Virus record (IMG/VR): IMGVR_UViG_3300044568_002177
Coordinates: 1-25,449 of that record
Strand: one strand, 5' to 3'
Length of the DNA: 25,449 bases
From: a virus
Shown: positions 5,202-24,893 of the stretch, one piece after another
Numbering within the stretch: the first letter of the stretch is position 1
Layout: every line of letters begins with the position of its first letter
The notes under the pieces: generated by a model
Told to the model about the DNA's origin: nothing
The model's input: only the letters and a program-made list of their open reading frames with translations
The model's database searches: none
Translations under genes and position numbers: made by a program

Positions 5202-5554
5202 GCGTTATTGATACTTTTGGGGGGGCATAAAATACTGTTCGCCTTATGAATTTGCTCCAGCACCACGTCCCATTCGGGCATGGATTCTTCGACGGTTTCG
5301 ATGATCATCATTCGCGCCCTTCGCATCGCGGTGTTGGCTGTCCCTTTGTGGGTGCCATTGAGCACTTCGAGAGCGTCCACCAGTCCGACCACGTTTTGCA
5401 GCACGTTGACCAGCTTCTGGATTCGATCCGCCACTTCGTCTTGCATGAGCTTCCCGTGGGGATCTCCGATGATCTGGCGCACACCCGCAAAGGCGAACAA
5501 GTCGCGGATGGGCAATCCGCATTCTGTGGTTTCTTCAACGGTTTCTGGTATCAT
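5198..5554 (-). CDS. Hypothetical phage protein
   Basis: 118 residues from the ATG at 5554. It begins MIPETVEETTECGLPIRDLF and is otherwise helical, with ADRIQKLVNVLQNVVGLVDA in the middle and MPEWDVVLEQIHKANSI near the end. No recognised domain. It is the fourth gene of the operon that starts at 6327, separated from the previous gene by 54 nt. Confidence 0.6.
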   Translation of the reverse strand: MIPETVEETTECGLPIRDLFAFAGVRQIIGDPHGKLMQDEVADRIQKLVNVLQNVVGLVDALEVLNGTHKGTANTAMRRARMMIIETVEESMPEWDVVLEQIHKANSILCPPKSINNA

Positions 5555-5903: not shown

Positions 5904-6092
5904 TCATTTGCGCGGAGTCTTCCGGTTGCGGAGGCGTGCCAAGGCTCCCTCCTGGGTGAGGACGTGCGGCGTGTTTCGCCCACTTTCCCATGCGGCTACC
6001 TGTCCCCGGCACGTATCGAGGACGGCATCCGCCCCGGCCTGTGTCAGGCCGAGGCGTTTGCGCTCATCGCGGATTTGATCGGCGAAGCTCAT
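5904..6092 (-). CDS. XRE-family HTH protein, Cro-like
   Basis: 62 residues from the ATG at 6092. An XRE-type helix-turn-helix spans about residues 4-38: FADQIRDERKRLGLTQAGAD, then the recognition helix RGQVAAWESGRN. The LGLTQ ... WE-GR signature is typical of Cro/CI-type proteins. There is no C-terminal regulatory domain. It is the second gene of the operon whose promoter carries two GAGATTCTC palindromes, which makes it the best candidate for the protein that binds them. Confidence 0.85.
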   Translation of the reverse strand: MSFADQIRDERKRLGLTQAGADAVLDTCRGQVAAWESGRNTPHVLTQEGALARLRNRKTPRK

Positions 6093-10723: not shown

Positions 10724-11691
10724 TCGGGAAGCTCGGTGACGATGGCGGTGATGCTTGGCGTGGTTGATCCGGCGACGTTGAGATTGATCGTCGAAAGCAT
10801 TCCCACGTTTGTTCCGATGAGTTGCCCAGCGGCGGTAAAGGAAATCGCGTTGTCGCCTGAGAAGTCAACGAACGTGCCTGCCGTGCCTCCCGTGAATGCG
10901 GATTCGGCAAGCGGCTCAATCAGTCCCGCGCCGTCATATTCCGCCGCCAAAGCCGCTGAGAAGTGAGGTGCGACGATGGCGGAGGTGTTGAGCAAAGCGA
11001 CAAGCTCGGCGCTTGTGGTGGTGATTGCGGCGTTTTCCCCGCCCCCGGCAAGATTGGTTTCCGCAAGCGCGGTAACAACACCGCTGCCGTTGTCGCCGGA
11101 TTTCAACTCGGCTTCCATGAGCGCGGCAAACGGCGCGTAAGCGTTGAGGGCGGCGATGAGTTGGCTGGCGGTGGTGGAAATCGCGTCGGCAGCACGGGCA
11201 AGCGTGACGCTGAATTTGAGGTTGTCGCTTGTGGTGACAGAAAGCGCCTGCGTGGTTCCGCTTCCGGCGAGTAGCTCGATGCTGTAACTGTTAGCGAGTG
11301 ATCCGGCGACATTGGCAACGATGCGGATGTCGTTGTGTGATCCCATCATGCTGGTCGCAAGCTCGGCAGTATCGCCCGCATCGCATGCGGGGGTAACGAC
11401 GAAATCCAGCCCGGTTTGTGTGATTGCGAGAGCCTGACTTTCGGCAGGGTCGCCAATGGCGAAGGTGTAGCCATTGCCGGCGGTTCCGGGGTTTTTCGCG
11501 GTGAGGGTGAATGCCCCGGTTTCCGTGTCGTCGTCCACGACTTCGGTAGCGGCGACGGGTCCGGCGGTGGCGTATTGGGCCTTGATGGTTCCGCTGCCAA
11601 ACGTGCCTGAGACGGCAACGCTAAATTCGCGCCCGAATCCGATGGAGTTGATTGGAAAGTTTCCGTTTCCGGTGATGGTTAGATTGGTCAT
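10720..11691 (-). CDS. Tail fibre or adhesion protein with repeated beta modules
   Basis: 323 residues from the ATG at 11691, 12 nt after the previous stop. At least two related modules are visible: one with NPGTAGNGYTFAI ... SQALAITQTGLDFVV, the other with VAGSLANSYSIEL ... TQALSVTTSDNLKFSVTLA and STTASQLIAALNA, then SGDNGSGVVTALAETNLAGG and its echo YDGAGLIEPLAESAFTGGT. I recall this kind of module (GN-I-V----...S-ALSV---G-A-TV-LA...STA--V-AA-N) from many phage tail fibre and tail-sheath-associated proteins. The C-terminus is Thr/Val-rich. No enzyme motif. Confidence 0.7.
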   Translation of the reverse strand: MTNLTITGNGNFPINSIGFGREFSVAVSGTFGSGTIKAQYATAGPVAATEVVDDDTETGAFTLTAKNPGTAGNGYTFAIGDPAESQALAITQTGLDFVVTPACDAGDTAELATSMMGSHNDIRIVANVAGSLANSYSIELLAGSGTTQALSVTTSDNLKFSVTLARAADAISTTASQLIAALNAYAPFAALMEAELKSGDNGSGVVTALAETNLAGGGENAAITTTSAELVALLNTSAIVAPHFSAALAAEYDGAGLIEPLAESAFTGGTAGTFVDFSGDNAISFTAAGQLIGTNVGMLSTINLNVAGSTTPSITAIVTELPE

Positions 11692-11703: not shown

Positions 11704-12564
11704 TTAAGCGGTTTCGCCGATGACTGTAATTCTTATTTCTGATGGCCCGCTTGATGAAAATGTTAGTTCATCAAACAGTAAAGAGTTTGCGGTTAGTGTT
11801 GGAATCTCTGCCGGGTCAATCAAGCCCATTGTTCCATACGATTCAGTAGCATAGGCAACCACCCCACTAACCCCTTCCAAAATCATGCCCTTTAGATTTG
11901 TGATTGTCGGTATGGCAATTCCTTCAAAATCCTTGCCGTCTCCGTCATAAATTACGCATCCAGAAGTCGCAACGCCTTGGGTGGTGTTGGCGCTTGTTGC
12001 CGCTGGCGTGATTCCTGTGCAAGTGCCATTATCAATGGCGATATTGATCGTTGAATCATTGTCTTGATAGATCGGGATAGAAAGTCCGCCAATTTCTTTG
12101 ACCGTCAAAACAATAGCAGTCGAAGCCCCTCCCACGGAAAAAACAGACGCAACATCAACGTCTGCCGCAAGAGCAGTGCGAACCTTTCCAGCCCAAACCG
12201 CCGCCGTGTCGCCTGAAGTTACATCAACAAGAATGGTCTTGGGGGAGTTGTCCATGCTGTCGCAAGTGACGATTATCTCTGCGTTTCCGTTTCCGCTGCC
12301 AATGGTCCCTACCGCGGTTGCGGTTTCGACTTGAGCCACGCCAGCAACCCACGCATCGCTCTCATCAGTGGTTCCGTCTGGAACATTCAAAACAAAATCA
12401 GACGCCGGGGCAATGATAGCCCGCACGGAATAGGCAACGTCTGCGGTCGGGAATGCGAATTGGGATTGCGACGGTCCAATTTGAACGGTTCCGGTGACAT
12501 TCGTGGAGCTTGGCGTCCCGGCAGCGTTAAGCCCTATAATCGCTTGTGCGGAAGAAACTGGCAT
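11704..12564 (-). CDS. Tail structural protein with beta repeat module
   Basis: 286 residues from the ATG at 12564. Residues about 85-200 contain GSGNGNAEIIVTCDSM, SPKTILVDVTSGDTAAVWAG, KVRTALAADVDVASVFSVGG and INIAIDNGTCTGITPAATSA. This matches a module I recall from many phage structural proteins (GNA-V-V-A-----SP-T--V-V-SGD-A---A-K-R-ALAAD---). The N-terminus (SSAQAIIGLNAAG) and C-terminus (ITVIGETA) are distinct. Together with the next gene it likely forms the distal tail or fibre. It carries a TTGACAT element 27 nt upstream. Confidence 0.7.
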   Translation of the reverse strand: MPVSSAQAIIGLNAAGTPSSTNVTGTVQIGPSQSQFAFPTADVAYSVRAIIAPASDFVLNVPDGTTDESDAWVAGVAQVETATAVGTIGSGNGNAEIIVTCDSMDNSPKTILVDVTSGDTAAVWAGKVRTALAADVDVASVFSVGGASTAIVLTVKEIGGLSIPIYQDNDSTINIAIDNGTCTGITPAATSANTTQGVATSGCVIYDGDGKDFEGIAIPTITNLKGMILEGVSGVVAYATESYGTMGLIDPAEIPTLTANSLLFDELTFSSSGPSEIRITVIGETA

Positions 12565-12591
12565 GCCGTGTCGATTGGTTTGTGGTGGCGG

Positions 12592-12598
12592 ATGTCAA
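12592..12598 (-). promoter_or_regulatory. TTGACAT element before the tail protein gene
   Basis: TTGACAT followed by CCGC on the minus strand, ending exactly 27 nt before the ATG at 12564. CCAAT lies further inside the spacer. No TATAAT-like box and no Shine-Dalgarno are visible. Same spacing as at 17964, 18908 and 23135. Confidence 0.6.
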
Positions 12599-13275
12599 GC
12601 GGGGTTTTCCGGCGGATCTGGGAAATTTATTCCGTAAGGGTAAGCCACGATCGGCAGGAAGATGTCACTTCTGAGCCTTTGCTTTATGGTCGCGGCTCCG
12701 TCTCCGTCAACCGCCACGGTTCCGACATGGACGAACGCCAAGTCGTCATTCCAGTCTGGCTGGTCGTCTGGATCTGGAAAATCATCAGTGACGAATATCG
12801 AAACCGCGCCAAGCAACGGTTCGGAACTCATACCGTCATAATCGTCGCCCCCGAATCCTTCAAACGATTCAGTTGGAAATCTTTCGATTTGAACCCATAC
12901 GCCATACGTCGTCGAAATTGAAAGAACGGAATGCCCGATTGTCCCGCTTGGATTGTATGGGTCATTGATGAGGTAAGTCGGAGTCGCCGCGTTAAATCTG
13001 GATTCCAGCGAAATCATTGTTGGCTGAAGATTGTTTAACCTCATCGCCGTCACCGCTCCGTAATACGTCTTGAGCCTGATTTCCGACTCCTCTTCAACAA
13101 CTTGCAACTTCCACGGGTGCTTGTAAGTCGTTGGCATTATCCTTGGAAGTTCGGGAGTGCCGCTCCTCGCCAACCGCGCCACTGCCTGCCGGATTGAATT
13201 AAAATCGGCAGCTTTAACAGCCTCGCCACTTTCCACGCGAGGTGGAAGGTTGATTGAAATCCCGGGTTTACTCAT
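12595..13275 (-). CDS. Distal tail protein, unknown type
   Basis: 226 residues from the ATG at 13275, overlapping the upstream stop by 8 nt. It starts SKPGISINLPPRVESGEAVK and continues with FNSIRQAVARLARSG, then aromatic beta-rich sequence and an acidic patch (DDFPDPDDQPDWNDDLAF). The N-terminal pattern of a short Pro-rich lead plus a helix is common in small phage tail-tip proteins. No enzyme motif. Assigned by position between tape measure and fibres. Confidence 0.6.
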   Translation of the reverse strand: MSKPGISINLPPRVESGEAVKAADFNSIRQAVARLARSGTPELPRIMPTTYKHPWKLQVVEEESEIRLKTYYGAVTAMRLNNLQPTMISLESRFNAATPTYLINDPYNPSGTIGHSVLSISTTYGVWVQIERFPTESFEGFGGDDYDGMSSEPLLGAVSIFVTDDFPDPDDQPDWNDDLAFVHVGTVAVDGDGAATIKQRLRSDIFLPIVAYPYGINFPDPPENPA

Positions 13276-14095
13276 CGTCTCCGTAGAGTTTTTGGTTGAT
13301 GTCGTTGTCGTCTATCAAAGTCCATGTGATCGACCATGAAGAAGCGGTTCCGACCGTGCGGCTTTCGGTCGATCCAGACATGAACCAAATCATCCCGGCA
13401 GGCGCGGCAGGGTCTCCATCTGGAACGTCGATCTTGCCAAGTTTTTCCAAATCAATGTTTGCCAAGCCTCCCGCGTTGCTGCGGCTTTTCGTCCATTCGG
13501 AAGTTGCTGCTTGATACGTCTTTATTCCGCGAGTAACGATAAAATCCCACCATTCGATCGCGAGCGCGTCAATCAGCGCGCCCCGATTGCCTTGTGTTAC
13601 AACGTCCCATATCTTGTAATTACTGGCAGTCGATGCCGTCTTGTTTTTCTCGTAAAGGCCATCATGTCCCTTCACGATCAATTCAATGTCCTCGATGTCA
13701 GTAACGTCGGCGAGGAACTTCGGATGGCGCAGGATGCTTCTTTCCTCGAGCGCGTTGTTTCGGGAATAAACCGTTTCACGGTCTTGCATCTCTGAGTCAA
13801 CTTGGATGTATCCGACATAGGTGACAAAAATTTTGTCAATCCCGCCCGGCTCCTCTTGGCATTCTGCGGTGTCGATTTCAAGCGGATGAAGGTATGACAA
13901 GACCTGTGGATAAACCACGGAAATCTTCGTTCCCTTGCGGAACGCGGCTTGCATGATCTGCCCGTAAAAATCTTGTCGGTTTGCCGAGAATGTTTGTGAT
14001 CCAGTAACCTTTCCGGTTGTGTCGCGCTGAAAAACAAAATCCGGCCCCGGCAACCATGAGTTGCGGGCGATTCCTCTAATGGTGGCAAGGCTCAT
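13268..14095 (-). CDS. Tail protein downstream of the tape measure (distal tail candidate)
   Basis: 275 residues from the ATG at 14095 (ATGA overlap with the tape measure gene). It begins MSLATIRGIARNSWLPG and is rich in Tyr/Trp/Ile with an acidic end (DDNDINQKLYGDDE). In siphophage gene order the gene directly after the tape measure encodes the distal tail or hub protein, which fits. No recognisable domain. The MSLAT-(V/I)-(R/Y)G start is shared with the tube candidate at 16327-16755. Confidence 0.6.
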   Translation of the reverse strand: MSLATIRGIARNSWLPGPDFVFQRDTTGKVTGSQTFSANRQDFYGQIMQAAFRKGTKISVVYPQVLSYLHPLEIDTAECQEEPGGIDKIFVTYVGYIQVDSEMQDRETVYSRNNALEERSILRHPKFLADVTDIEDIELIVKGHDGLYEKNKTASTASNYKIWDVVTQGNRGALIDALAIEWWDFIVTRGIKTYQAATSEWTKSRSNAGGLANIDLEKLGKIDVPDGDPAAPAGMIWFMSGSTESRTVGTASSWSITWTLIDDNDINQKLYGDDE

Positions 14096-15150
14096 GCGTA
14101 TTTTGCTGTTATGCCGTCACGCTGAATCCGCGTAAGAACGGCGGTTTGTCTTTGGTTCTCTTTCAGAAGCGGGTCGGATTTGTTCGATGCGAATGGGTTC
14201 ATTGATTGGATGAATCCTTTTGGCGAGATTGATTCCTTGATGCTTTCCGCGATGCCTTCACCAATGGACTTGCCAAGCCCCTTGAACATGTCGCTGAAAA
14301 CATTTCCAACGCCAGTCTGCGCGACGTATTCGATTGACGTTCTAAACACCTTTCCAAACTCGCGCATTTTGTCGGACATGCCATTCAGCTTGTCGAACAT
14401 CGCGTCAATGCCGGATGCTGCACCCTTTATTCCAGATCCTCCGACCGCGCCTTCAAAGAAACCAGCAAGCAGGCTTCTGCGCGTCATTGTCCACCGTTCT
14501 AAGTATTCCCCGATTTTATCAAATCCCTCAAACGCATCTTGCGACATTCCCCCAAATGAAGAAATGTTGCTTTTTGCTTTTGCCAAGCTGCCGTCAAAGT
14601 CTCGGAAAAATCGTATGAATTTCGAGCCGCCTCTCATCCCGAATAGGTCACCCATGATTCCCTCTAGCCCTTCAAACTCAGGTCCAAGCTCAGAGACTGC
14701 TTTGCCGATTGTGTAAAATTGTTCATCAAGTTTCATGTGTTTCAAGTCCGAAGCACCAAACCCCAGTTTATTTAACGCATCTTTTTGAGTTTCCGCGCCT
14801 TGCGTTGCTTTATACATATTATCCGCAAAGCGCGACATAATCATTGAGGTGTCTGCCGCTTTCGCTCCCGCAATCGTTAATGCCTCTTCCATGAGCATCA
14901 GCCGATCAACAGAAATCCCCGTCTGCATGCTCATGTCGTTTAGATTTCCAACCCAGTCCAGCATCTCTCTTCCGGCTTGAGGAACGGCGAGGATAATCCG
15001 GCCCATCAAGTCCGTGACTTGCGCCCCGGCTTGCCGCAATCCGCCGATGCCGATTTGCCTTCCGATCCTGCCAAATAGCCCGCCAAGCCCGCCAAGCCCT
15101 TTTTGCACGGCGGTTGCGTCAAATCCAAGTTTTACGGTTGATCCGATCAT
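14092..15150 (-). CDS. Tape measure protein
   Basis: 352 residues from the ATG at 15150 (ATGA overlap with the chaperone frame). Typical tape-measure features: Gly/Leu-rich hydrophobic N-terminus (GLGGLGGLFGRIGRQIGIGG), long helical sequence (MSMQTGISVDRLMLMEEALT, SMIMSRFADNMYKATQ) and a conserved LGP-type segment (LGPEFEGLEGIMGDLFG). It is the longest gene of the tail block but short for the family; at about 1.5 angstrom per residue it would specify a tail of roughly 50 nm. It follows the frameshifted chaperones as expected. Confidence 0.8.
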   Translation of the reverse strand: MIGSTVKLGFDATAVQKGLGGLGGLFGRIGRQIGIGGLRQAGAQVTDLMGRIILAVPQAGREMLDWVGNLNDMSMQTGISVDRLMLMEEALTIAGAKAADTSMIMSRFADNMYKATQGAETQKDALNKLGFGASDLKHMKLDEQFYTIGKAVSELGPEFEGLEGIMGDLFGMRGGSKFIRFFRDFDGSLAKAKSNISSFGGMSQDAFEGFDKIGEYLERWTMTRRSLLAGFFEGAVGGSGIKGAASGIDAMFDKLNGMSDKMREFGKVFRTSIEYVAQTGVGNVFSDMFKGLGKSIGEGIAESIKESISPKGFIQSMNPFASNKSDPLLKENQRQTAVLTRIQRDGITAKYA

Positions 15151-15377
15151 TCAAGTGGTGGCGGTTCGATGTTTGCTAGTTCCTCAAATTCATCCGTTAG
15201 GGCTTTCGATGGCTCGAAAAAGTAAACCCAGCGGAAATCCTGTCCGTTTCGCATTCCGTCCGCGTGGATAAGCTGCATGACGTGCGCGCATTCCATTTCC
15301 CATATTGCCGTATGCTGGCAAATACCCGCTCGCCTTGCGAACATCTCGACGGATGCTAGGACGCATGGCGAGCATCC
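15147..15377 (-). CDS. Tail assembly chaperone, -1 frame extension (GT-type)
   Basis: The frame open from 15377 to 15147 (76 codons plus stop) is entered by a -1 shift from the chaperone gene 15356-15745. It reads GCSPCVLASVEM and then MFARRAGICQHTAIW ... FFEPSKAL. An internal ATG at 15344 exists but has no Shine-Dalgarno, so translation mainly as the C-terminal part of a 199-residue fusion is more likely. The equivalent lambda GT protein helps wind the tape measure, whose gene follows at once with an ATGA overlap. Confidence 0.7.
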   Translation of the reverse strand, partial: GCSPCVLASVEMFARRAGICQHTAIWEMECAHVMQLIHADGMRNGQDFRWVYFFEPSKALTDEFEELANIEPPPLE

Positions 15378-15745
15378 CCCTTTCCCGGCGCTACGCTTTC
15401 CACCATTGCGGCTTTTAGTTGCTGGAGTCTTTCAACCACCCCCTCGATGATTTCCGGCAACTCATCCTCGTAAGTGGCGCAAAACTTCACGAAATCCGCG
15501 TCAAGCTCATCACGGGCTTTTGAAAGCGCCTCAATCATGGATTCTTTGCTCATCGCCATGATCCAAGCGCATTCATGCACGGCGGCGGTTTCGCTTTGCT
15601 CGCGCTCCGATCCGGTGGAGAAGATGATGTTCCCCCACCGCCTCAAAAGCTCAAATCGTCCAAACGGCAAGCGCAATTCTTGCCCGTCCAGCTTTAGCGG
15701 CGGGCCAGTCCAAACGGCGGAAAGCAGGCATTCTCTTTTTGTCAT
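15356..15745 (-). CDS. Tail assembly chaperone (G-type), frameshift donor
   Basis: 129 residues from the ATG at 15745, which has AAGGA 8 nt upstream. It contains LRLPFGRFELLRRWGN, a conserved ETAAVHECAWIMAM stretch and a helical C-terminus (FVKFCATYEDELPEII). It sits directly before the tape measure like lambda G. The slippery heptamer near the 3' end makes a fraction of ribosomes continue in the -1 frame. Homology to a named chaperone family is not claimed; the call rests on position and the frameshift. Confidence 0.75.
   Translation of the reverse strand: MTKRECLLSAVWTGPPLKLDGQELRLPFGRFELLRRWGNIIFSTGSEREQSETAAVHECAWIMAMSKESMIEALSKARDELDADFVKFCATYEDELPEIIEGVVERLQQLKAAMVESVAPGKGDARHAS
15377..15383 (-). 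other. -1 frameshift slippery heptamer A AAG GGG
   Basis: In the zero frame the codons are AAG (15382-15380) and GGG (15379-15377), preceded by an A, giving the XXXYYYZ pattern. After a -1 slip the next codon is GGA and the frame stays open for 76 codons. The zero frame stops six codons later at TAG (15356). Position, just before the tape measure, matches the conserved siphophage/myophage tail chaperone frameshift. Confidence 0.75.
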
Positions 15746-15749
15746 GGGA

Positions 15750-16322
15750 TTATCCTTCTAATCGCGCAAGCAGTTCGTTGCGCTGGTGTTTTGGGAGTCG
15801 TGAATCAATCAAGGTGTGGAGTTGATCCCCACGGCTTTGATGGATTGCGCGGCGGGCGTTGTTGTAAAGTTGGAAGCACGTCCAGCGGTTGTAAACAAAC
15901 GCGAGAATATAGCTTTCGAGTGATTGCGGGAGAGCCTGAACAAAAGCCGGAATGTCCGACATTCGGCGCAATCCCGGCAGCGGAATTGAACGCGCTTTCA
16001 GCCAATCAACGGCGTGATCCAGCCATTCATCCGACGAAAGAATGCCGTTAGGTTTTTCTTTAATGAACTCGGAAATTCTCGGAAGCGGATGACCTTCCCT
16101 TAAGGTTCCGCCGTTTGCCCAAAACTCCATCAGGGCTTGAGTGTCCTCCATGCCGTCCTCTGATATCGCGCAAACCAAAAACGATCCGTAGGGCTTATCC
16201 CTCGTGGTTGATTCGATTAACTTGACCGGGCAATTCCGATCTAGCGGAATCCCGCACGCCATCAGCGCAGATGCTAGATTCACGTCTCCGGTCTGGAATG
16301 TCGATTGTCCTGTGAGTTGCAT
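15750..16322 (-). CDS. Tail-region protein of unknown function
   Basis: 190 residues from the ATG at 16322, 4 nt after the upstream stop. It starts MQLTGQSTFQTGDVNLASAL and contains CPVKLIES, YGSFLVCAISEDG, a central helix (EFWANGGTLREGHPLPRISE) and a basic C-terminus (SRLPKHQRNELLARLEG). It lies between tube candidate and chaperones, where tail assembly genes are found. No known domain. Confidence 0.6.
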   Translation of the reverse strand: MQLTGQSTFQTGDVNLASALMACGIPLDRNCPVKLIESTTRDKPYGSFLVCAISEDGMEDTQALMEFWANGGTLREGHPLPRISEFIKEKPNGILSSDEWLDHAVDWLKARSIPLPGLRRMSDIPAFVQALPQSLESYILAFVYNRWTCFQLYNNARRAIHQSRGDQLHTLIDSRLPKHQRNELLARLEG

Positions 16323-16326
16323 TCCG

Positions 16327-16755
16327 TTAGGTCAAGGTGACTGGAGAATTGGTGGCGACCGATGGGAGGTAAATTGCTTGCACGTTCCCGCTTTCAAACC
16401 CGTTATTGGTTGGCGTGACGTTGTTGCCAATGATAACAAGTCCTGCGTTTGCGTTTGGGGTGTCGCCAAGATTTGAACTGCTGCGGGTTCGGCTGTTGCT
16501 GGTGGAGTTTGCGAGCACGATCACCGATCCGATATTCCCGACAAGTCCCGTAGCCTTCACCGCAACAATCCCATCAAGCGAAACATCCTTCTTGGCGTTA
16601 TAAACCGAAAAAGCCGCATCGCACCCGATATGGTTTGGCGCAAATGCCTGCTCGCTGGTTCCGTTGTAAGAGATGGTCCCGGTAAAAAGCCCGGACGCGG
16701 ATGTTTCATCGGCGGTGCCGAATTGGGCGGTTCCGTAAACTGTGGCAAGGCTCAT
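16327..16755 (-). CDS. Tail tube protein candidate
   Basis: 142 residues from the ATG at 16755. It is Thr/Ser/Asn/Gly-rich and predicted beta-strand (SLATVYGTAQFGTADETSAS, LDGIVAVKATGLVGNIG, SVIVLANSTSNSRTRSSS), similar in composition to phage tube proteins, and lies between a tail-terminator candidate and the chaperones, the usual place for the tube gene. The length is typical of small tube proteins. No strong family signature, so the call is mostly positional. Confidence 0.6.
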   Translation of the reverse strand: MSLATVYGTAQFGTADETSASGLFTGTISYNGTSEQAFAPNHIGCDAAFSVYNAKKDVSLDGIVAVKATGLVGNIGSVIVLANSTSNSRTRSSSNLGDTPNANAGLVIIGNNVTPTNNGFESGNVQAIYLPSVATNSPVTLT

Positions 16756-16767
16756 GGTTGAAAAGTG

Positions 16768-17226
16768 TTAGTAGTTGGGGCAGGCAACGACGTTCATTTG
16801 AATGGTTGTCACGCGGCGTCCGTCCTGTGCGCTGGTAGTTGGATTGATGTTGCGGATGTCAAGGATATTGACGCCGTTTCGCGCTTGGCAAAATTGGATC
16901 GCGTCCCGATTCGCCAAGATGTCGTAAAGCGCGGAAGCCATGGCGCGATGATCCTCCTTCGTGGTTCCGCAAGTCTCCTCATCGCTTTCCTCGTCTGGCA
17001 CTGTTTCCAGAACTACTGAGAGCGGAACCGAAAGGACGCCGTGCATTGTGACGCCGCTTTGCTCCCATGTCTCAACGTCGCCGGATTCGGTGATTCCGAT
17101 AAGAGGCGGGGAAGCTGTTGGGTTGTCGCCGTTTACCAAAACTTCCAGCCCGGCAAGAATTGAAAAAAGCGGTTGCTTCAAAAGCACCCATTCGCGGATT
17201 GATTGGATTGTGTTGTCGGTTGTCAT
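16768..17226 (-). CDS. Tail terminator/completion candidate
   Basis: 152 residues from the ATG at 17226, set by the ATGA overlap (the longer frame to 17268 lies inside the neck gene). The N-terminal helix IQSIREWVLLKQPLF and a beta-rich body (VETWEQSGVTMHGVLSVPLS) are followed by a helix with EDHRAMASALYDIL and VTTIQMNVVACPNY. Helix-then-beta small proteins between the neck protein and tube gene are usually tail terminators. Assigned by position and layout. Confidence 0.55.
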   Translation of the reverse strand: MTTDNTIQSIREWVLLKQPLFSILAGLEVLVNGDNPTASPPLIGITESGDVETWEQSGVTMHGVLSVPLSVVLETVPDEESDEETCGTTKEDHRAMASALYDILANRDAIQFCQARNGVNILDIRNINPTTSAQDGRRVTTIQMNVVACPNY

Positions 17227-17936
17227 TTTGCGTTGTCTAGTGATGCCTTTGCCGCTTTTCGATACCACTGCGTAGTTTTACGTAGGCCGAAAGTGATTGC
17301 TTTTTGGCTTGCCCCCGATCCCAAAACGCTTGCCGCCGATGAATGGCGAACGGAGTTTTTCAGTTCGGTGATGGGCTTGAATGGATTCAGCGGCTTTTTC
17401 GCGCTGCCAAATTTCGAGTGTTTTTGAGCGTAGCCAAGGAAGTTTCGGCCAATGTTGATCCGGCCTTGTCCGGTTTGAGCTCGGGCGATTTCCTGCCCAG
17501 CGCCAAGCCATCCGCCCTTCGCCATGCCAGCTCTCGCGTATCGTGCACGCATGGCCTTTTTGAAGTTGGCCTCAGTGACTTCTCTGCGCTCTTCAATGGG
17601 GAGCTTGGCGGTTCTGCCTCCTCGCCTCGTCCTGTTGACCTCAATCCAATCATTGATTTCCTCGACCGTAACAAGCTCGCGCTTGCGCCTTTTGGTCGAT
17701 TTTCTGAATCGCTTCCCATCCATTACGAGCAAAACATTCAAAGCGTCGGCAAAAATCGCCCCCTCCTGTTTTCCTCTGGTTTTCGTCCTCCCCCATGCCT
17801 GAGTCTCAAAAGCCAGTTCCCTCGCAGTTTGCACGCCCCATCTGACAACGGCTTGTTTTGATGATTCGCCAAATCCTTTTGCCGCGCTCCTTAGCGAGCG
17901 TTGCAGTTTAGGCATGTCAACTTTGGCGCGAATCAC
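17223..17936 (-). CDS. Neck/tail-completion protein (gp10-like candidate)
   Basis: 237 residues if started at the GTG at 17936; an ATG exists eight codons in. The GTG is favoured because it lies exactly 27 nt from a TTGACAT element, like three ATG starts elsewhere, and has GAGG and AAGG upstream. The protein is very basic with KLQRSLRSAAKGFGESSKQA at the start, then QTARELAFETQAWG, which resembles HK97-gp10/neck-type proteins. The basic middle (RFRKSTKRRKRELV) is unusual. The C-terminus (GLRKTTQWYRKAAKASLD) is helical. Confidence 0.6.
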   Translation of the reverse strand: MIRAKVDMPKLQRSLRSAAKGFGESSKQAVVRWGVQTARELAFETQAWGRTKTRGKQEGAIFADALNVLLVMDGKRFRKSTKRRKRELVTVEEINDWIEVNRTRRGGRTAKLPIEERREVTEANFKKAMRARYARAGMAKGGWLGAGQEIARAQTGQGRINIGRNFLGYAQKHSKFGSAKKPLNPFKPITELKNSVRHSSAASVLGSGASQKAITFGLRKTTQWYRKAAKASLDNAK

Positions 17937-17963
17937 GCCTCACGCCTTAGATGGTGCGGGCGA

Positions 17964-17970
17964 ATGTCAA
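17964..17970 (-). promoter_or_regulatory. TTGACAT element before the neck protein gene
   Basis: TTGACAT then TCGC, immediately after the ligase stop codon, ending exactly 27 nt before the GTG at 17936. Spacing is identical to the copies before the genes at 12564, 18880 and 23107. Confidence 0.6.
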
Positions 17971-18501
17971 TCAAATAGGGCGGTCAAGGTCGGACACAAG
18001 GCGCTTTACCTTAATCACGTCGCCCATGCGGCCCGGTCGGTAGTTGCTGCCGGGGCGGCGGATGACGCAACCCTCGCCGCCGTTGGATACGATTTCCGCT
18101 TCCATTCCTGAAAGGTCAGCATGGCCGGAAAGCTGACGATGCGTCACTCGGTAAACGTGCGCGGGAAGTTTGATCTTAGCCAACTTGGCTTCGCGGTCCT
18201 CAAATGTGCCGGATTCAGCTAAGTCAAAGACGTGGTAGGTGATGTTTCGCCAGTCGCTTCCTTTGGTCTGGATGCTGGACAATAGGGCATCAAAAGTGCC
18301 GCGCCCCATCCAGATTTCCCCGTCGAGACGAAAGCCAGAGGGAAGCCCTGCGGTGAACCATGCTGGCGCTTTTAGGTCTTTGCCGTGGCGACTCAAAAGT
18401 CTCGATCCGGTCCAGATTGCGCGAACGCCGTCAAGCTTCTCACTCACCCACCATCCGGCTACTTCGGGCGGAATTTGGCTTGTGAGTAACGCGGCTTGCA
18501 T
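17971..18501 (-). CDS. Minimal ATP-dependent DNA ligase (LigE-like, adenylation domain only)
   Basis: 176 residues from the ATG at 18501, which has AAGGAA about 9 nt upstream; a GTG at 18525 would add eight residues. All nucleotidyltransferase motifs are visible: I, EKLDGVRA (21-28, nucleophile Lys22); Ia, SRHGK (37-41); III, DGEIW (60-64); IIIa-like, YHVFDL (89-94); IV, EGCVIR (143-148); V, IKVKR (163-167). The wording around motifs I to III (APAWFTAGLP, LDGEIWMGRG) is close to bacterial LigE-type ligases. The protein ends nine residues after motif V, so the OB-fold domain with motif VI is missing. It lies among head and neck genes, an odd place for a replication or repair enzyme. Confidence 0.85.
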   Translation of the reverse strand: MQAALLTSQIPPEVAGWWVSEKLDGVRAIWTGSRLLSRHGKDLKAPAWFTAGLPSGFRLDGEIWMGRGTFDALLSSIQTKGSDWRNITYHVFDLAESGTFEDREAKLAKIKLPAHVYRVTHRQLSGHADLSGMEAEIVSNGGEGCVIRRPGSNYRPGRMGDVIKVKRLVSDLDRPI

Positions 18502-18547
18502 GCGGACATTTTCCTTATTGACCACGGCAATGCAAGAATAATTTGAA

Positions 18548-18880
18548 TCATGCCCGTTCTTTTCCGGTTAGGGTGATGATTACAAAATCCCGCCCGCGAT
18601 TAATTGACCCGACGCGGAAAACCCGGCTTTCGGTTGTTGCTGATTTCTTGAGGTAAGATTGCGAGTCAAGAGGGTAAGCCGCGTCAAATGCACTCCGTTT
18701 GCAAACGCAAGTTTTTTGCGTATTTGGGTCTTGCGCGTATTCCATCAACTCGGACCCGTCCATGGTCTCAGCCCCCACGATGTCCACCACATCACCCCCG
18801 CCAATGGAAAGCGTTTGCGTCCCCATGATTGCAAATGCCTGAGTAGCGGCGGCGGCGGCAAAGGCGGAAACAAGGCTCAT
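18548..18880 (-). CDS. Head-completion/head-tail connector candidate
   Basis: 110 residues from the ATG at 18880. The N-terminus is Ala-rich (SLVSAFAAAAATQAFAIMG), followed by TQTLSIGGGDVVDIVG and a beta-rich C-terminus (VFRVGSINRGRDFVIITLTG). The layout, a helix followed by a small beta-barrel-like domain, is common in head-closure proteins located between capsid and neck genes. No family signature. A TTGACAT element lies 27 nt upstream and a strong hairpin just beyond it. Confidence 0.55.
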   Translation of the reverse strand: MSLVSAFAAAAATQAFAIMGTQTLSIGGGDVVDIVGAETMDGSELMEYAQDPNTQKTCVCKRSAFDAAYPLDSQSYLKKSATTESRVFRVGSINRGRDFVIITLTGKERA

Positions 18881-18907
18881 GGCGTTGCTATTGGTCGCAA
18901 CTAGCGG

Positions 18908-18914
18908 ATGTCAA
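18908..18914 (-). promoter_or_regulatory. TTGACAT element before the head-completion gene
   Basis: TTGACAT then CCGC, exactly 27 nt before the ATG at 18880, with CCAAT inside the spacer. It lies 4 nt downstream (in transcription direction) of the hairpin at 18919-18950, so the pair looks like a terminator followed by a new initiation site. Confidence 0.6.
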
Positions 18915-18918
18915 CACA

Positions 18919-18950
18919 AGACCGCCGCCCGGTTTCCCAGACGGCGGTCT
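18919..18950 (-). terminator. Stem-loop downstream of the capsid transcription unit
   Basis: A perfect 9-bp GC-rich stem pairs AGACCGCCG with CGGCGGTCT (18919-18927 with 18942-18950) around a 14-nt loop. On the minus strand it follows the gene at 18975-19343 and is followed by only a weak T-rich stretch (TGTGTT), so termination may be partial. It would lower transcription of neck and tail genes relative to capsid. Confidence 0.5.
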
Positions 18951-18974
18951 GCCAATGAATACGACGCAAGAAAG

Positions 18975-19343
18975 TTAGACGATGATCCCAAGTTCCGCAA
19001 GTTTTTCCTTGGCCTCCTTCACCTCGGCCTTCCGCCCGTCGCCAGCGGCGAGGGCTTTGAGGGCTTCGATGTCGGGTTGCTCCGCTTCACCCGATTGCTC
19101 GGGTTCGTCGGTTGGCGCGGTTGGCGCTTCCGGTTCTGGGGTTGGCGCTTCGGGGGGTTCCTCGCGGAAAACAAGGCCGCTCGCCTCGCCCTTTCGCTTG
19201 GATGCTACGGGGCGAAGATATGCGGCGGCAGATCCATCATGCGCCTTGTATGCCCGCAATACCTCATCGGCATTACCTGATATGCAAAGCAGCGTGGCTT
19301 TGCCTTCATCATCGAAAGAAACGGCAAATGATGGTTTTTCCAT
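18975..19343 (-). CDS. Protein with Pro/Glu/Thr linker downstream of the capsid gene
   Basis: 122 residues from the ATG at 19343. A small N-terminal domain (SFAVSFDDEGKATLLCISG, RAYKAHDGSAAAYLRPVASK) is joined by a repetitive Pro/Glu/Thr/Ala linker (EEPPEAPTPEPEAPTAPTDE) to a C-terminal helix (EVKEAKEKLAELGIIV). In DNA the linker contains repeated GGTTGGCGC-type units. Small proteins next to the capsid gene are often decoration, head-fibre or connector proteins; which one applies here cannot be decided. Confidence 0.65.
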   Translation of the reverse strand: MEKPSFAVSFDDEGKATLLCISGNADEVLRAYKAHDGSAAAYLRPVASKRKGEASGLVFREEPPEAPTPEPEAPTAPTDEPEQSGEAEQPDIEALKALAAGDGRKAEVKEAKEKLAELGIIV

Positions 19344-19354
19344 AATCGTTAGAA

Positions 19355-20239
19355 TTACGCGGTGACAACCCGGACGCCAAAGTCCATACCAACGGCAACG
19401 CCGTAAAGCAGGCCAACGGAGTATTTCAATTCGCCAGCGTTTGGATCATACCAACGGCGGAATTGAACCGGGAGATTAAGACCGGGGATGATGATGTTTT
19501 CGACCTCAACGCCAACCTCGGCGGCTCCGGTGGAGTCAACACCACGACCAGCCATGAGCAAGGATGAACGATGGAAGGCGAAGGCGGCGAGGTTTTGCGA
19601 ATTGGCATCGCATTGGTCGGATTCGTAAATGTTGAATCCGGCTACACGTGGTGCCATGGCCTCGGTTTTGTTCGCGTCCATGCCGGGGAACTCGGCGGAG
19701 TTGAGCGTTTTGACAATGCTTCCGTAGTGACCCGGCGCGGACCAGATAGTCCGTCCAGCTTTCGGCGCTTTCTTGGTGTTGGTAAGCGCGGTGCCAAGGT
19801 CAACGATGTCGTCACGGTCAAAGTTCGCGGCGGTGATGGTGGTAGAGGTTGCGAAGTTGTCAGCGACAACCAGATTCCACAAGTCACCGAAAACCTTCGT
19901 TCCCAACGCTTGAAGCGATGGCTGAATGAAAAGGTCGTTGAGGAAGATGGAGGACTTGGAGCGTTCCACGTCCTTGAATCCGTAAACGAAGCCGTAAAAG
20001 GTGTCGAGGGTGACGGTTTTCGCCGTGAGCGCGGTGTTTTGCGAAGTGTAACCGCTGGAAAGGTCAACAGCAGTCGGCACGGTTGCAAAGCGGGTGGTGA
20101 CGCTCGCGCCCTCGGCGGCGATGTCAGACGAGAAGTCGGTGATTACTCCGTTGAGGGGAGCGAACAACGCTTGAAGGTGTGGAAGGGTTTCTTCCGCGAT
20201 TTGTGCGAGGTTTACGCCCGCGATGGTGTTGGTGGCCAT
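19355..20239 (-). CDS. Major capsid protein (HK97 fold, P22-coat-like)
   Basis: 294 residues from the ATG at 20239. Its position right after protease/scaffold, its length and its composition fit a major capsid protein. Visible segments are an N-terminal helix (IAEETLPHLQALFAPLNGVI), a TRFATVP strand, an E-loop-like stretch, FGDLWNLVVADNF, IWSAPGHYGSIVKTL, and near the end the beta-rich VGLLYGVAVGMDFGVRVV. This resembles P22-coat-type proteins (phage coat protein 5 family) more than classical HK97 gp5. There is no long N-terminal delta domain, consistent with a separate scaffold. The leader CTAACACTCACCACTAAACC has no Shine-Dalgarno. Confidence 0.8.
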   Translation of the reverse strand: MATNTIAGVNLAQIAEETLPHLQALFAPLNGVITDFSSDIAAEGASVTTRFATVPTAVDLSSGYTSQNTALTAKTVTLDTFYGFVYGFKDVERSKSSIFLNDLFIQPSLQALGTKVFGDLWNLVVADNFATSTTITAANFDRDDIVDLGTALTNTKKAPKAGRTIWSAPGHYGSIVKTLNSAEFPGMDANKTEAMAPRVAGFNIYESDQCDANSQNLAAFAFHRSSLLMAGRGVDSTGAAEVGVEVENIIIPGLNLPVQFRRWYDPNAGELKYSVGLLYGVAVGMDFGVRVVTA

Positions 20240-20258
20240 GGTGGTTTAGTGGTGAGTG

Positions 20259-20708
20259 TTAGGATTTGATGGAAAGGATTGATTTGTGTTGGTGGAAAAA
20301 TGCGCTGCGTTCTTCGCCTGCGGGCATTGCTTGGAACTTTGCGATGATTTCCTCCTTGGAGTCCTTCGCGCTTCCGCTAATCTCAAAAGCCTTCTCTTGC
20401 CCAACGGTTGCCATTTCAGCAACGGCGGCGGCAGCGACGGCGGATTGAGTCGCCTTGGATTTTTCGGTTAGCTCGGCAATGGTCGAATCCCTTTCGGCAA
20501 GTTTGGCGGTGAAATCATCAACCTTGGTCGTTAAATCGGTGATCTTCAAATCTTTCGCGGCGATTTCGCCAGCGAGGTTTTGAAGGTCGTCGATCTTCGC
20601 TTGCGCGGTGGCGAGGGATTCGCGGAGTGTTGCGTTTTCCGCAACTTCGCTTTCGAGTTTAGCGATGGCGTCGGACTTGTCGGGGAAAAGTGCGCTTAGA
20701 AAGCTCAT
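20259..20708 (-). CDS. Nested scaffold from an internal start of the protease gene
   Basis: An in-frame ATG at 20708 (Met211 of the protease) is preceded by CCAGGACGC, giving AGGA at good distance. It would yield the C-terminal 149 residues alone: MSFLSALFPDKSDAIAKLES, a long coiled coil (ENATLRESLATAQAKIDDLQ and beyond) and a helical tail. This is the same logic as lambda C and Nu3, where the scaffold is made from a start inside the protease gene. Confidence 0.55.
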   Translation of the reverse strand: MSFLSALFPDKSDAIAKLESEVAENATLRESLATAQAKIDDLQNLAGEIAAKDLKITDLTTKVDDFTAKLAERDSTIAELTEKSKATQSAVAAAAVAEMATVGQEKAFEISGSAKDSKEEIIAKFQAMPAGEERSAFFHQHKSILSIKS

Positions 20709-21338
20709 GCGTCCTGGAGTTGGGGAATCACCGCCAATGTCAACCGTATTTTTTGCGTTGAATTTAACAATCGAATCCGCAAAACCGCGTTCAACCGACT
20801 CCTTCGCACCCATCCACGTCTCAGCCTTCATGAGTTCGCGCATTTCTTCTGGCTTGGCTCCGGTGCGATTGGCATAAATGGCGGCGATTTCCTCACTGAT
20901 TTCTTCCAGATTCTTAGCGGCTCGGGCGTGATCGGCGGCGTTTCCAGCGATGACTTGCGCGGCTTCATGGATCATAATCCGCCCGCCTTCGACGATCTTG
21001 ATCTCATCCGCCGCCATGAGAATGACGCTGCCCATGGATGCGGCTAGGGTGTTGACGGTGGCGATAACCTTCACGCCGCGCGAACGCATGCCCATCAAAG
21101 CGTTGTAAATTCGGTAGCCATCAAGAACGCTACCGCCCGGCGAATTGATTTCAATTTCGAGGGTTTCCAGCGCGTCATCAGCGGACGCCGTGAAGCCTCC
21201 AACGGTCATGTTTTCTGCCACCGCTTTGTTTCCATAGCTCCGCTCAATGTCGCCAATCAAATCGTCGGCAGACCATGGAGTTACGGCATCATTTAGGCGA
21301 ACTTTCGCGGCCCGGTTTTCAATCGTTAGGAGTTTCAT
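20259..21338 (-). CDS. ClpP-like head maturation protease fused to scaffold
   Basis: 359 residues from the ATG at 21338, overlapping the portal stop by 20 nt; the longer frame to 21380 is inside the portal gene. ClpP/S14-type motifs: NSPGGSVLDGY (65-75), AASMGSVILMAADE (99-112, catalytic Ser101), IMIHEAA (121-127, catalytic His124) and ETWMGAKESVERGFADS (173-189, likely Glu173 as the acid). From about residue 211 the protein changes to a Lys/Glu/Ala-rich coiled coil, the scaffold part. It processes or assists procapsid assembly; the capsid gene follows. Confidence 0.88.
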   Translation of the reverse strand: MKLLTIENRAAKVRLNDAVTPWSADDLIGDIERSYGNKAVAENMTVGGFTASADDALETLEIEINSPGGSVLDGYRIYNALMGMRSRGVKVIATVNTLAASMGSVILMAADEIKIVEGGRIMIHEAAQVIAGNAADHARAAKNLEEISEEIAAIYANRTGAKPEEMRELMKAETWMGAKESVERGFADSIVKFNAKNTVDIGGDSPTPGRMSFLSALFPDKSDAIAKLESEVAENATLRESLATAQAKIDDLQNLAGEIAAKDLKITDLTTKVDDFTAKLAERDSTIAELTEKSKATQSAVAAAAVAEMATVGQEKAFEISGSAKDSKEEIIAKFQAMPAGEERSAFFHQHKSILSIKS

Positions 21339-22830
21339 CGTCTTGAGTGGTTTCGGTTTGTGTTGATTGCTGCCCGGCAACTTCGTTTGGCGTTAGCATC
21401 GCCATTTCGCGGTCTTCCACGGTGATTTCCTGCCCGTGCTTTTTGTTGAGTTCTTCCGCAACGCGCTTTGCGGTGTATTTCCGCATCCAGATGATCCGGG
21501 CGCGGCGTTCGTGAAATTCATCGTCGGTAAGACCTCGCGCTCCCGTGATTTCGTCGGTGTTGCGAAGTCCTGCCCGCCACTCTTCAAGCTCCATCTTTGA
21601 TTCGCGCCCATCGTCAACAGATAGCCGGGGCGGACGGGAAAATGACCACGAAAACGGATGATCCAGCAAAGGAACGCGCTTTTCTTCGTGGAAAACGGAA
21701 TAGGCCCATGAGATTGCACGGCGGGCAAAAAAGTCTAGCAGTTTCTGGCGTTTCACGATGGCGCGGCGAGCCTTCATTATTTCCGCACGCTCTGCCGTTC
21801 CTTGGCCGGGAGAGTTCCAAACAAGCGAATAAACCCAATCGGCGGCGACAATCGCGGACTTGAAGAGTCGGTCTTGGAATGACTCGTAAAGAGCGCCGGG
21901 TGATTCGTGCTTGATTTGCTCGATCTTCTCGCCCGCGCCTGCGGTCATGTAAATGATCCCGCCCGGAGTCGCTGTTGCAACGAATGAGTTGCCGTTAGAA
22001 TCAGGCTGGCTCATGGAGTTTCGAGGGTTCTCTAGGTCCGGGCCCCCTAGCTCGTTGTGAATCGAAAGGTGAAGGCGGGAAACGATTTGTTGGCGGATGC
22101 GCTCATCGTCGATTGAGCAAAGCGAGGTTTTGAAATCCTCAAGGGCATGGGTGAAAAGCGGCAATCCTCGGCCCTGCTTGGCGAATAGCACGTTGAACCC
22201 GTAGATCATATTCGATGCCGGAACATCGGTGTAAACAGACGCATCATCACCCATTTGCACGCGGAAAGCGGCGATTCTTCCGCTGGCATAACGGATGATT
22301 CCACGCGAGATTTTGAAACCATTCCAAGGCCCGCCCTCAACTGTTTCCTTTGAGTTGTCGGATCGCACGCGATGCGGCGGCAAGCATTGAATGCGCGGGA
22401 ATCCATCCTCACCTTTGATGAGCATCCAAAACGCATCACCGTAAATATCCACGGTGATTGAAGTTAGTTCAAGCAGCGAGTGCCAATCCATCACCCCGCC
22501 TTCGACGGTGCATGACGGAAACCAGTATTTACGCATGAACGAGGCGATTGCTTTGCCGTCGTCCATGTCTGATTCGCCTGTGTAAGTTGGCAGGAAAGCC
22601 TCTCCCACGCTGAATGAAGCCCGTTGATTGATTACAGCTTTTGGGATTCCAAAGTTGACGTAAAGCCGCTCGGATAGCGAGCAAAGCACATTCCAGTCGT
22701 GAGTCGGGATGAGCTTGTCGATGTCATCACGCCTAACGGCAAATTGCGGGCCACGGAATCGCGAGCGATCTGCCGCATGCGCGACCCTGTTTCCATAGGC
22801 GTAAGGCTGGCCAAATTCGTTTAGGATCAT
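21319..22830 (-). CDS. Portal protein (lambda GpB type)
   Basis: 503 residues from the ATG at 22830, one base after the TAA of the upstream gene (TAACATG). Segments typical of portals are visible: IDKLIPTHDWNVLCSLSERL, the WML-I--EDG-P-IQCLPPHRV wing, VLFAKQGRGLPLFTHALEDF (Q-RG-P-L--A--D), WVYSLVWNSPGQGTAER, and the C-terminal RIIWMRKYTAKRVAEELNKK helix. It forms the dodecameric DNA-entry ring at one capsid vertex. The order terminase, joining protein, portal, protease matches lambda. Confidence 0.88.
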   Translation of the reverse strand: MILNEFGQPYAYGNRVAHAADRSRFRGPQFAVRRDDIDKLIPTHDWNVLCSLSERLYVNFGIPKAVINQRASFSVGEAFLPTYTGESDMDDGKAIASFMRKYWFPSCTVEGGVMDWHSLLELTSITVDIYGDAFWMLIKGEDGFPRIQCLPPHRVRSDNSKETVEGGPWNGFKISRGIIRYASGRIAAFRVQMGDDASVYTDVPASNMIYGFNVLFAKQGRGLPLFTHALEDFKTSLCSIDDERIRQQIVSRLHLSIHNELGGPDLENPRNSMSQPDSNGNSFVATATPGGIIYMTAGAGEKIEQIKHESPGALYESFQDRLFKSAIVAADWVYSLVWNSPGQGTAERAEIMKARRAIVKRQKLLDFFARRAISWAYSVFHEEKRVPLLDHPFSWSFSRPPRLSVDDGRESKMELEEWRAGLRNTDEITGARGLTDDEFHERRARIIWMRKYTAKRVAEELNKKHGQEITVEDREMAMLTPNEVAGQQSTQTETTQDDETPND

Positions 22831-22831
22831 G

Positions 22832-23107
22832 TTAGAAAATGGCGTGGGATTCGGAAGCCGGAATGCCGCCCGCTTCGTTCATTTTGAGGATTAAACCAAG
22901 CATCCGCAAGCGGTCCTGATTGGTCATTGTGGCGCTACCCGAAAAGGATTGGCCGTTCACTGTGGCGTTTGTGATGCGCATTGATGCGTTGGCGTCGGTT
23001 GCGAGCGATAGCGCAAGGGCAGCGCGTTCCGTGGCAATTGTGGCCATGGCGGATTCGTCATCCTTCAATGCGATGTAAATGGATCGCGCCGTTGCAAACA
23101 ATGACAT
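22832..23107 (-). CDS. gpW-like head-tail joining protein candidate
   Basis: 91 residues from the ATG at 23107. A helical first half (MSLFATARSIYIALKDDESA, then ERAALALSLATDANASM) is followed by a short beta pair (NATVNGQSFSGSATM) and a helix (NQDRLRMLGLILKMNEAGG). Position between large terminase and portal is that of lambda W, and the helix-beta-helix plan agrees, though it is longer than the 68-residue lambda protein and lacks an obvious sequence match. A TTGACAT element precedes it by 27 nt. Confidence 0.6.
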   Translation of the reverse strand: MSLFATARSIYIALKDDESAMATIATERAALALSLATDANASMRITNATVNGQSFSGSATMTNQDRLRMLGLILKMNEAGGIPASESHAIF

Positions 23108-23134
23108 GCCGCCCGAATTGGGTGCTTGGCGCGT

Positions 23135-23141
23135 ATGTCAA
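23135..23141 (-). promoter_or_regulatory. TTGACAT element before the gpW-like gene
   Basis: TTGACAT then ACGC, exactly 27 nt before the ATG at 23107, with CCAAT inside the spacer. It lies between the terminase stop and the joining protein gene. No TATAAT-like box follows. Confidence 0.6.
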
Positions 23142-23144
23142 GAT

Positions 23145-24893
23145 TCAATCCGTCTCGAAAAGCTCAAACACTAGCGAGCATCCAACTTGGTAAACAAGGC
23201 AGTCCCAAAGGTGATTCTGGCGGTTGCGTGTGATCCATAGCGGAGTCTCCTGCCCGGTTCTGGCGTGCCTCACCACTTCCCGCCGTTCGGATTTCATGTG
23301 CGTCTCGAAAGCCTTGGAAACATCGCCCGGAACTTCTAGCTCACCGCCTTGGCCAGTAATGAGCCTGTGCGCGATGTCTTTAACGGGGTTGGTCGCCAGC
23401 CAAAACCACTTAGCAATCCCTCCTGACTTTGCTTTCTGGCGTTGCGTTTTCGAGTAAAGGCGGCGGACTTTGTTTCCAGTTCGGTCAACGTGTTCCCAAT
23501 CCGTCCGCACGCCATCGCCCTTGATGCCCGTCCATCCGTGTTTCACGCATAGGTCAAGTATGCGGTCTTGGTCGAATCCAATGTCAATAATGGTTTTTCC
23601 GGGTTCTACTCCGTATTTTTTCCGCAAGTCCTCCAATGCTTTTTCGTCTTTGCCGTCGCTTGGAACGTAACCCTCCGAAAGAATCCGGGCTTTCCCGCCA
23701 TCACCCCATGCGCAAACCATGTGCCAGAAGTGATTTCCCCCGGCGTCGATTGTCATAAACCTTTCCTTTTCCCAGTCGAAACGCTCGGCAGATTCGCAGT
23801 CTGCTTTTGTGAAATCGGCGCGTGAGATGGGCATGGCGTCATCACTCATGTGATCGGCCCAGAATTTAGCGCGGCGTTTTTGCCACCACTGGCGGCGTTT
23901 ATCGACAATACCCTGCTTCAATGCGCGGACAGATTCCAGCCATCCAATGACTTCGCTTGACCATGGAACCCACCAGACCGCGAGGGCGTCGATATGGAAT
24001 CCGCGATACCCGCGCAGGCCGCTTTCCGTGGTGGAAACATACCCGCCATGACCATTGCCGAGATTGGATGTTGCTAGCTTCCGGCGATTTGCTGGCGTGT
24101 CGGCATAGGCTTTGCGGCAGATTTTGCACTCCATGCGGGCGGTGTCGGCAGTCGCCTGCTCGTCAATCGTTCCGTCTTCGCGGGGGATTGTATCGAATCT
24201 TAGCGCCTCGAAATCGTAGGCTTGCTCATGCCCGCAATCGCACCGCCAAGCGAAATCCGCCATGTCGGTTTTCTTCCACTCGCCCTCAAACTCTCCATCC
24301 GCAAATCCGCCTTGCGATACTAGAAAAACCTTTCGATTCCATCGGTCGTGATGGCGGGCGAGAAACTCACGGATCAACCCGGCTTTCCATTTCCAGACCT
24401 CATCCCCATAAAGCCATCGCATTGACTTTTCTTGGAAGTTTGACCCGTTCGCCCCTCCCATAATTAGGGGCATGTGAGGGAAAATGATGTCGAGCTTGCG
24501 CGACTTGTGACGGTCTTCCGGCCATAGATCAGCTATGGCAGCGCATGATTTGAGCGCGGGTTGGAGTCGGGTTTCCGCCCAGAACTTCGCGTCCTCGTCA
24601 GTTTGGGAAGCGTAAAGAAACGGCCCCGGATCTTCGCTGACAACGTAGGGAATCAACGCTTCCGCAAGCGTGGATTTGCCGCTTCCGGTTGGCGCTAGAA
24701 CCACTACCTCGCGCGTCTCGGCATCGGCAGCGCATTCCATCGGCGCTTTCCACCATGGAGTTTGCTCCGGGTCGTATTTGCTTGATCGCTCTGAGTTGGA
24801 AATCTTTACGTTCTTCGCCGCCCACTCCCACGGCTTTAGCGTGGTTGGAGGTTTCCATCCTAGGCATGCGCCTTTGACGACGGCGGGAATCAT
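23145..24893 (-). CDS. Terminase large subunit (lambda GpA family)
   Basis: 582 residues from the ATG at 24893 (ATGA overlap with the small subunit). Walker A is APTGSGKST (67-75, Lys73); Walker B is RWLYGDEVW (159-167, Asp164-Glu165). The GpA-type zinc motif CDCGH (217-221) pairs with CKIC (255-258). The nuclease domain begins near FMTIDAGGNHFWHMV (378-392, Asp382) and continues with ETPLWITRNRQNHLWDCLVY near the end. It is the ATP-driven packaging motor that cuts concatemers. Length is in the normal range (lambda GpA 641). Confidence 0.95.
   Translation of the reverse strand: MIPAVVKGACLGWKPPTTLKPWEWAAKNVKISNSERSSKYDPEQTPWWKAPMECAADAETREVVVLAPTGSGKSTLAEALIPYVVSEDPGPFLYASQTDEDAKFWAETRLQPALKSCAAIADLWPEDRHKSRKLDIIFPHMPLIMGGANGSNFQEKSMRWLYGDEVWKWKAGLIREFLARHHDRWNRKVFLVSQGGFADGEFEGEWKKTDMADFAWRCDCGHEQAYDFEALRFDTIPREDGTIDEQATADTARMECKICRKAYADTPANRRKLATSNLGNGHGGYVSTTESGLRGYRGFHIDALAVWWVPWSSEVIGWLESVRALKQGIVDKRRQWWQKRRAKFWADHMSDDAMPISRADFTKADCESAERFDWEKERFMTIDAGGNHFWHMVCAWGDGGKARILSEGYVPSDGKDEKALEDLRKKYGVEPGKTIIDIGFDQDRILDLCVKHGWTGIKGDGVRTDWEHVDRTGNKVRRLYSKTQRQKAKSGGIAKWFWLATNPVKDIAHRLITGQGGELEVPGDVSKAFETHMKSERREVVRHARTGQETPLWITRNRQNHLWDCLVYQVGCSLVFELFETD

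Follow-up and report, generated by a model that had tools for sequence, protein, structure and literature searches.

Leaderless promoters and phage late promoters are already known, and the system described here would be a variant of them. According to the portion of the report by Zheng et al. (2011, PMC3160421) considered here, bacterial leaderless genes carry a TANNNT element about 12 bp before the start codon; the promoter places the transcription start site (TSS) at the start codon, and no Shine-Dalgarno (SD) sequence is present. The late promoters of phages phiEco32 and 7-11, which have been mapped and are read by a phage sigma factor, occur in several copies before late genes and consist of bipartite or single elements that differ between related phages (PMC8948821). 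In phiKZ, the late promoter motif is TATG, the last base of which is the TSS, and transcription is carried out by the phage's own multisubunit RNA polymerase (PMC4666361). P8625 is described as the first lytic phage of Verrucomicrobiota, and its genome paper makes no mention of promoters (PMC4642752).

The locus described here resembles each of these promoter systems in part. As in bacterial leaderless genes, the promoter would place the TSS at the start codon and there is no SD sequence; in contrast to the TANNNT promoters, the strongly conserved part is an extended -35 element, the -10 element is reduced to an A at -11 in the main group of phages, and the pattern is confined to structural genes in phages that probably infect Verrucomicrobiota, which that portion of Zheng et al. 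does not mention. Similar to phiEco32 and 7-11, several copies precede late genes and the element differs between related phages; unlike in those phages, no sigma factor was found and the element is based on TTGACA. The tight register with the predicted transcription start is shared with phiKZ, whose motif is not -35-like.

The window, that is, the whole stretch of DNA that was analysed, comprises 25,449 bases and corresponds to an IMG/VR virus record; all family-matched structural and replication open reading frames (ORFs) tested lie on the minus strand. The pattern TTGACATNCGC has five exact matches in the window, all on the minus strand (Table 1), compared to a mean of 0.09 in dinucleotide shuffles, none of which (0/100) reaches five. 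The original prediction described four copies of the heptamer TTGACAT, each 27 nt before a start codon (counted from the end of TTGACAT). All four were recovered at this distance, before ATG 12564, GTG 17936, ATG 18880 and ATG 23107, while the fifth exact copy and a near-copy inside the protease gene had been overlooked. We put the probability at roughly 0.8 that the motif is the -35 part of phage late promoters whose transcripts begin with the first base of the start codon, yielding leaderless structural mRNAs. In this mechanism, the box TTGACAT[TC][CG]GC at -34 to -24 would form the upstream part of the promoter, transcription would begin on the start codon itself, and one copy of the box would drive the scaffold gene from within the protease gene. 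The boxes would presumably be read by RNA polymerase with a host sigma70-like factor, possibly aided by a phage protein.

Table 1. Putative promoter boxes and associated features of the window.
Feature	Coordinates	Strand	Remark
Putative promoter box TTGACATACGC (extended -35)	23131..23141	minus	27 nt before ATG 23107
91-aa gene in the terminase large subunit/portal interval	22832..23107	minus	start codon is the predicted +1; gpW-like label from position only, no family match
Intrinsic-terminator-like hairpin	18920..18949	minus	ends about 5 nt before box 18904..18914
Box TTGACATCCGC	18904..18914	minus	27 nt before ATG 18880
110-aa conserved late gene	18548..18880	minus	predicted leaderless mRNA
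Box TTGACATTCGC	17960..17970	minus	27 nt before GTG 17936
237-aa late gene, GTG start	17223..17936	minus	predicted leaderless mRNA
Box TTGACATCCGC	12588..12598	minus	27 nt before ATG 12564
286-aa late gene	11704..12564	minus	predicted leaderless mRNA
Near-copy box TTGACATTGGC inside Clp-protease gene	20733..20743	minus	28 nt (from TTGACAT) before internal in-frame ATG 20708
Predicted scaffold protein, 149 aa	20259..20708	minus	in-frame C-terminal part of protease ORF 20259-21380
Fifth exact copy	16852..16862	minus	inside ORF 16768-17268 (166-aa protein), about 100 nt before ATG 16755 of next gene

Other details of the original prediction fared unevenly. The pentamer CCAAT does occur in three of the four spacers (the remaining one has CTAAG there), but it is not a general part of the motif, as it is specific to the window phage and near-identical strains, and relatives conserve only the A at -11. 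Consistent with this, a search of viral contigs for TTGACATNCGC-N9-CCAAT returned near-identical strains together with apparently unrelated, off-register places, and CCAAT was rejected as a motif element. The boxes before 12564, 17936 and 23107 lie just after a preceding stop, as had been claimed for all four; the box before 18880 does not, and is instead preceded by a strong terminator hairpin. The reported lack of a TATAAT-like box was borne out by a standard sigma70 scan, which lists none of the sites and finds fewer sites than in shuffles. A search against Rfam gave no match. Between structural genes, 17971-18525 encodes a 184-aa protein that contains an ATP-dependent DNA ligase domain and occurs in 12 of the searched loci.

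The spacing of the motif was examined in relatives collected by a terminase search of viral contigs, which yielded first 24 and later 80 loci; dereplication left 34, totalling 444 kb. Among 279 TTGACA sites in these 34 relatives, 31 lie 28 nt and 32 lie 29 nt before an ATG or GTG opening an ORF no shorter than 60 codons. Other offsets mostly hold 0-6 sites; in these counts TTGACA is the search word, sites in homologous genes are not independent, and ORF starts are as predicted rather than fixed by experiment. An unbiased scan of all hexamers by offset in the same 34 relatives places TGACAT at 27 nt first and TTGACA at 28 nt second, so that the check proposed with the original prediction, enrichment at a fixed spacing in relatives, was strongly passed. 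Furthermore, when the comparison is anchored on homologous proteins rather than on the motif, the box precedes the gene after the terminase in 34/34 dereplicated phages; most carry TTGAC[AT], with TTGCCA (L060, L076) and TTGCGA (L112) as variants. In the near-identical strain L008/L052 the spacer at 17936 has been rewritten, with TTGACAT, CGC and an AA pair kept. Whole records of most main-group phages contain 4-7 copies of the motif, on one strand only, and the motif is confined to the late structural module. The capsid protein of L119/L028 is 91% identical to that of the window phage and the terminase only about 50% identical, reflecting module exchange.

Numbered from the start codon, the consensus begins with TTGACAT[TC][CG]GC over positions -34 to -24; an A follows at -11 and a C at -1, with a purine (A or G) as +1. 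In the logo of sites with a spacing of 28 (n=36; TTGAC itself was the search word), the conserved positions are T-28 (34/36), G-25 (35/36), C-24 (30/36), A-11 (32/36) and C-1 (29/36). With the first base of the start codon taken as +1, these positions coincide with those at which a sigma70 promoter is expected to have its -35 box, the -11A of its -10 element and the pyrimidine/purine pair of its start site. The box contains the -35 hexamer of such promoters, and TTGACA at -34, A-11 and C-1/R+1 together agree with a TSS at that base; it is from the spacing and C-1/R+1 that this TSS is predicted. Of the TAnnnT that sigma70 promoters carry at a spacing of 16-18 bp, the main group lacks a conserved T-7, so that no standard -10 element is apparent there. 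Clearer -10-like elements are seen elsewhere: L028 has an explicit one (TTGACA-N17-TAGAAT-N6-ATG), along with TATCGT before a GTG, and P8625-like phages have TTGACA 30 nt and TATTGG 7 nt before the start, corresponding to an N17 spacing.

Dyads are also found between box and start codon in some relatives. In P8625 (L116), the palindrome GTATCCA-N5-TGGATAC or variants of it occupy this position at 5412-5447, 10736-10771 and 15558-15593 and form a candidate operator. CTAACAG/CTGTTAG dyads or direct repeats with an operator-like look lie between TTGACA and the start codon in L028, L082, L112 and L115, and the element is repeated several times near 5250-5330 of L115.

The terminators bear on where transcription could begin. 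The hairpin upstream of the 110-aa gene has a folding energy of -31.7 kcal/mol over 56 nt (z -5.7), and hairpins of the same type, with T-runs, directly adjoin the box before this gene in L016, L017, L065, L107, L116 (P8625) and L196, among others. Promoter and RNA start would consequently have to fit into the final ~35 nt ahead of the start codon, which allows no leader or at most a very short one. No SD signal above background was detected in the phages or in two metagenome-assembled genomes (MAGs) of the host phylum, as expected of leaderless genes; the SD-like bases that the original prediction had singled out at 17936 are nothing special in this setting. The leader of the major capsid gene (20240-20280 in the window) is, there and in nearly all relatives, C/A-rich and similar in style, without an SD sequence (e.g., CTAACACTCACCACTAAACCACC-ATG).

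An RNA element, such as a protein-binding or translation signal at a set position in a longer leader, could also keep a constant distance from the start codon in two lineages (-34 here and -19 in a sister lineage considered below) in the absence of SD sequences; no promoter would then be involved. However, transcripts from upstream would often not cover the box, given that a terminator ends just before it in several phages, and A-11, C-1/R+1 and the clear -10-like elements at N17 in L028 and P8625 fit transcription. An RNA element is consequently judged improbable. Leaderless late mRNAs, one of the options raised in the original prediction, are the best supported reading, based on the fixed spacing, A-11, C/R at -1/+1 and the abutting terminators, all of which suggest that the boxes are promoters, presumably late ones.

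The near-copy within the protease gene offers a separate view of the constraint on the box. In phage lambda, the genes for protease and scaffold overlap (C/Nu3). The window shares this layout: its predicted scaffold corresponds to the C-terminal portion of the protease gene, in the same frame and with a start of its own. The arrangement differs in that a promoter-like box lies inside the protease gene in leaderless register before that start. In L097, L103, L112 and L115, stops separate the protease from the downstream scaffold region. The codons NTT-GAC-ATT at this site are kept in 18/18 relatives while the first residue varies (F/V/L), with a joint p of 1.5e-13 under each phage's codon usage and with phages treated as independent. 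The box at the scaffold start is held at the nucleotide level within coding sequence. Its spacing to the scaffold start in relatives is mostly 29, with 32, 35, 38 or 44 in some and never shorter. Lengthening with no shortening is what one would see if no start codon could precede the TSS, and further argues against an RNA element.

Conservation of this kind might alternatively reflect coding constraint or chance, since FDIR, the peptide encoded by TTTGACATTCGC, is found repeatedly in late proteins, and one conserved occurrence of it, in the 166-aa protein, contains the fifth exact copy. Such an origin is very improbable for the pattern as a whole: most boxes lie outside coding sequence or straddle stops, the first residue at the scaffold start varies where the nucleotides do not, and both the protein-anchored comparison and the codon-usage test at the scaffold site, as well as the low count in shuffles, contradict it. 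For the fifth copy itself, relatives keep GAC in 19/19, ATT in 16/19 and CGC in 16/19. Because its codons are also biased, this copy may promote transcription of the gene at 16755 with a leader of ~70 nt, or else be a coding FDIR motif. An additional copy at 23577-23587 (TTGACATTGGA) lies in the IDIG motif of the terminase; it was taken as coding and rejected as a promoter.

The family of the window phage probably infects Verrucomicrobiota. The major capsid protein of the window phage shares 72% identity with its counterpart in Verrucomicrobia phage P8625, whose host is Puniceicoccales IMCC8625, and a search with the capsid protein identified three MAG contigs, including an Opitutae MAG and a Verrucomicrobia MAG, with one labelled Flavobacteriales. 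A terminase search of genome contigs, a second route to the host, gave no match. The pattern including A-11 and C-1 was also considered as a host promoter and rejected: it has 5 matches in 289 Verrucomicrobiota genomes versus 1 for the control, and four of the five are one and the same sequence, in which GGAGA precedes the ATG. In 195 kb of an Opitutae MAG, no peak is seen at 28-30 nt. The near-absence of the extended motif from the 289 genomes indicates a phage feature.

These results raise the question of what reads the box. Reading by a host sigma factor alone finds no support in the Verrucomicrobiota genomes, which do not use the extended motif, and this together with the degenerate -10 of the main group makes help from a phage protein possible; a phage factor reading the box, in line with the activator-dependent phage promoter that the original prediction offered as its other option, is plausible. 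In its stronger form, the box would be what a phage-encoded specificity factor (a sigma-like protein or an activator) recognises in redirecting host RNA polymerase to the late genes. This proposal overlaps with the leaderless promoter reading and differs from it in the reader of the box. It is consistent with the lineage-specific spacer dyads (GTATCCA..TGGATAC in P8625; CTAACAG..CTGTTAG in L028/L082/L112/L115), and there is precedent in phiEco32 and 7-11, which encode diverged sigma factors for their single-element or bipartite late promoters (PMC8948821). P8625 gp40 (L116:26427-26849) and an ORF of the L125 contig (L245:437-958) were read as tandem helix-turn-helix proteins and are possible late regulators. 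On the other hand, TTGACA is already a host-type -35 element, and no match to Sigma70_r2/r4 exceeded the cut-off in 16 phage records, some of which are possibly incomplete. A 62-aa helix-turn-helix protein of the window (5904-6092) was rejected as a common regulator, as it is absent from the relatives searched. We consider a dedicated specificity factor possible, while leaning against it.

A sister lineage with a related capsid gene (L120, L122, L140, L141, L143, L195) also bears on this question. In these phages TTGACA lies 13-15 nt before many late starts, directly behind a terminator in L120, L122 and L195. At this distance it cannot serve as the -35 element for a start at or before the ATG, so the leaderless model does not explain this lineage. 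One possibility is a shorter, single-element promoter as in phiEco32 (PMC8948821). Lineage-specific spacing under a phage specificity factor would account for both the -34 and the -19 positions. An extended scenario can be drawn, in which a phage factor redirects the Verrucomicrobiota RNA polymerase to an extended -35, almost -10-less promoter, controlling a leaderless late regulon that includes the intragenic scaffold promoter, with the register shifted by ~15 bp in the sister lineage; taken as a whole, this scenario is tentative and rather unlikely.

Regulation in Verrucomicrobiota phages is hardly known. Being recognisable in the sequence itself, such a promoter would allow late genes and true start codons to be called in these phages. 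The promoter reading of the boxes predicts structural mRNAs that are leaderless and begin with GTG in an SD-free setting, and provides a testable way in which a scaffold could be made from within the protease gene. Finally, the 15-bp shift in the sister lineage poses a question of promoter evolution.
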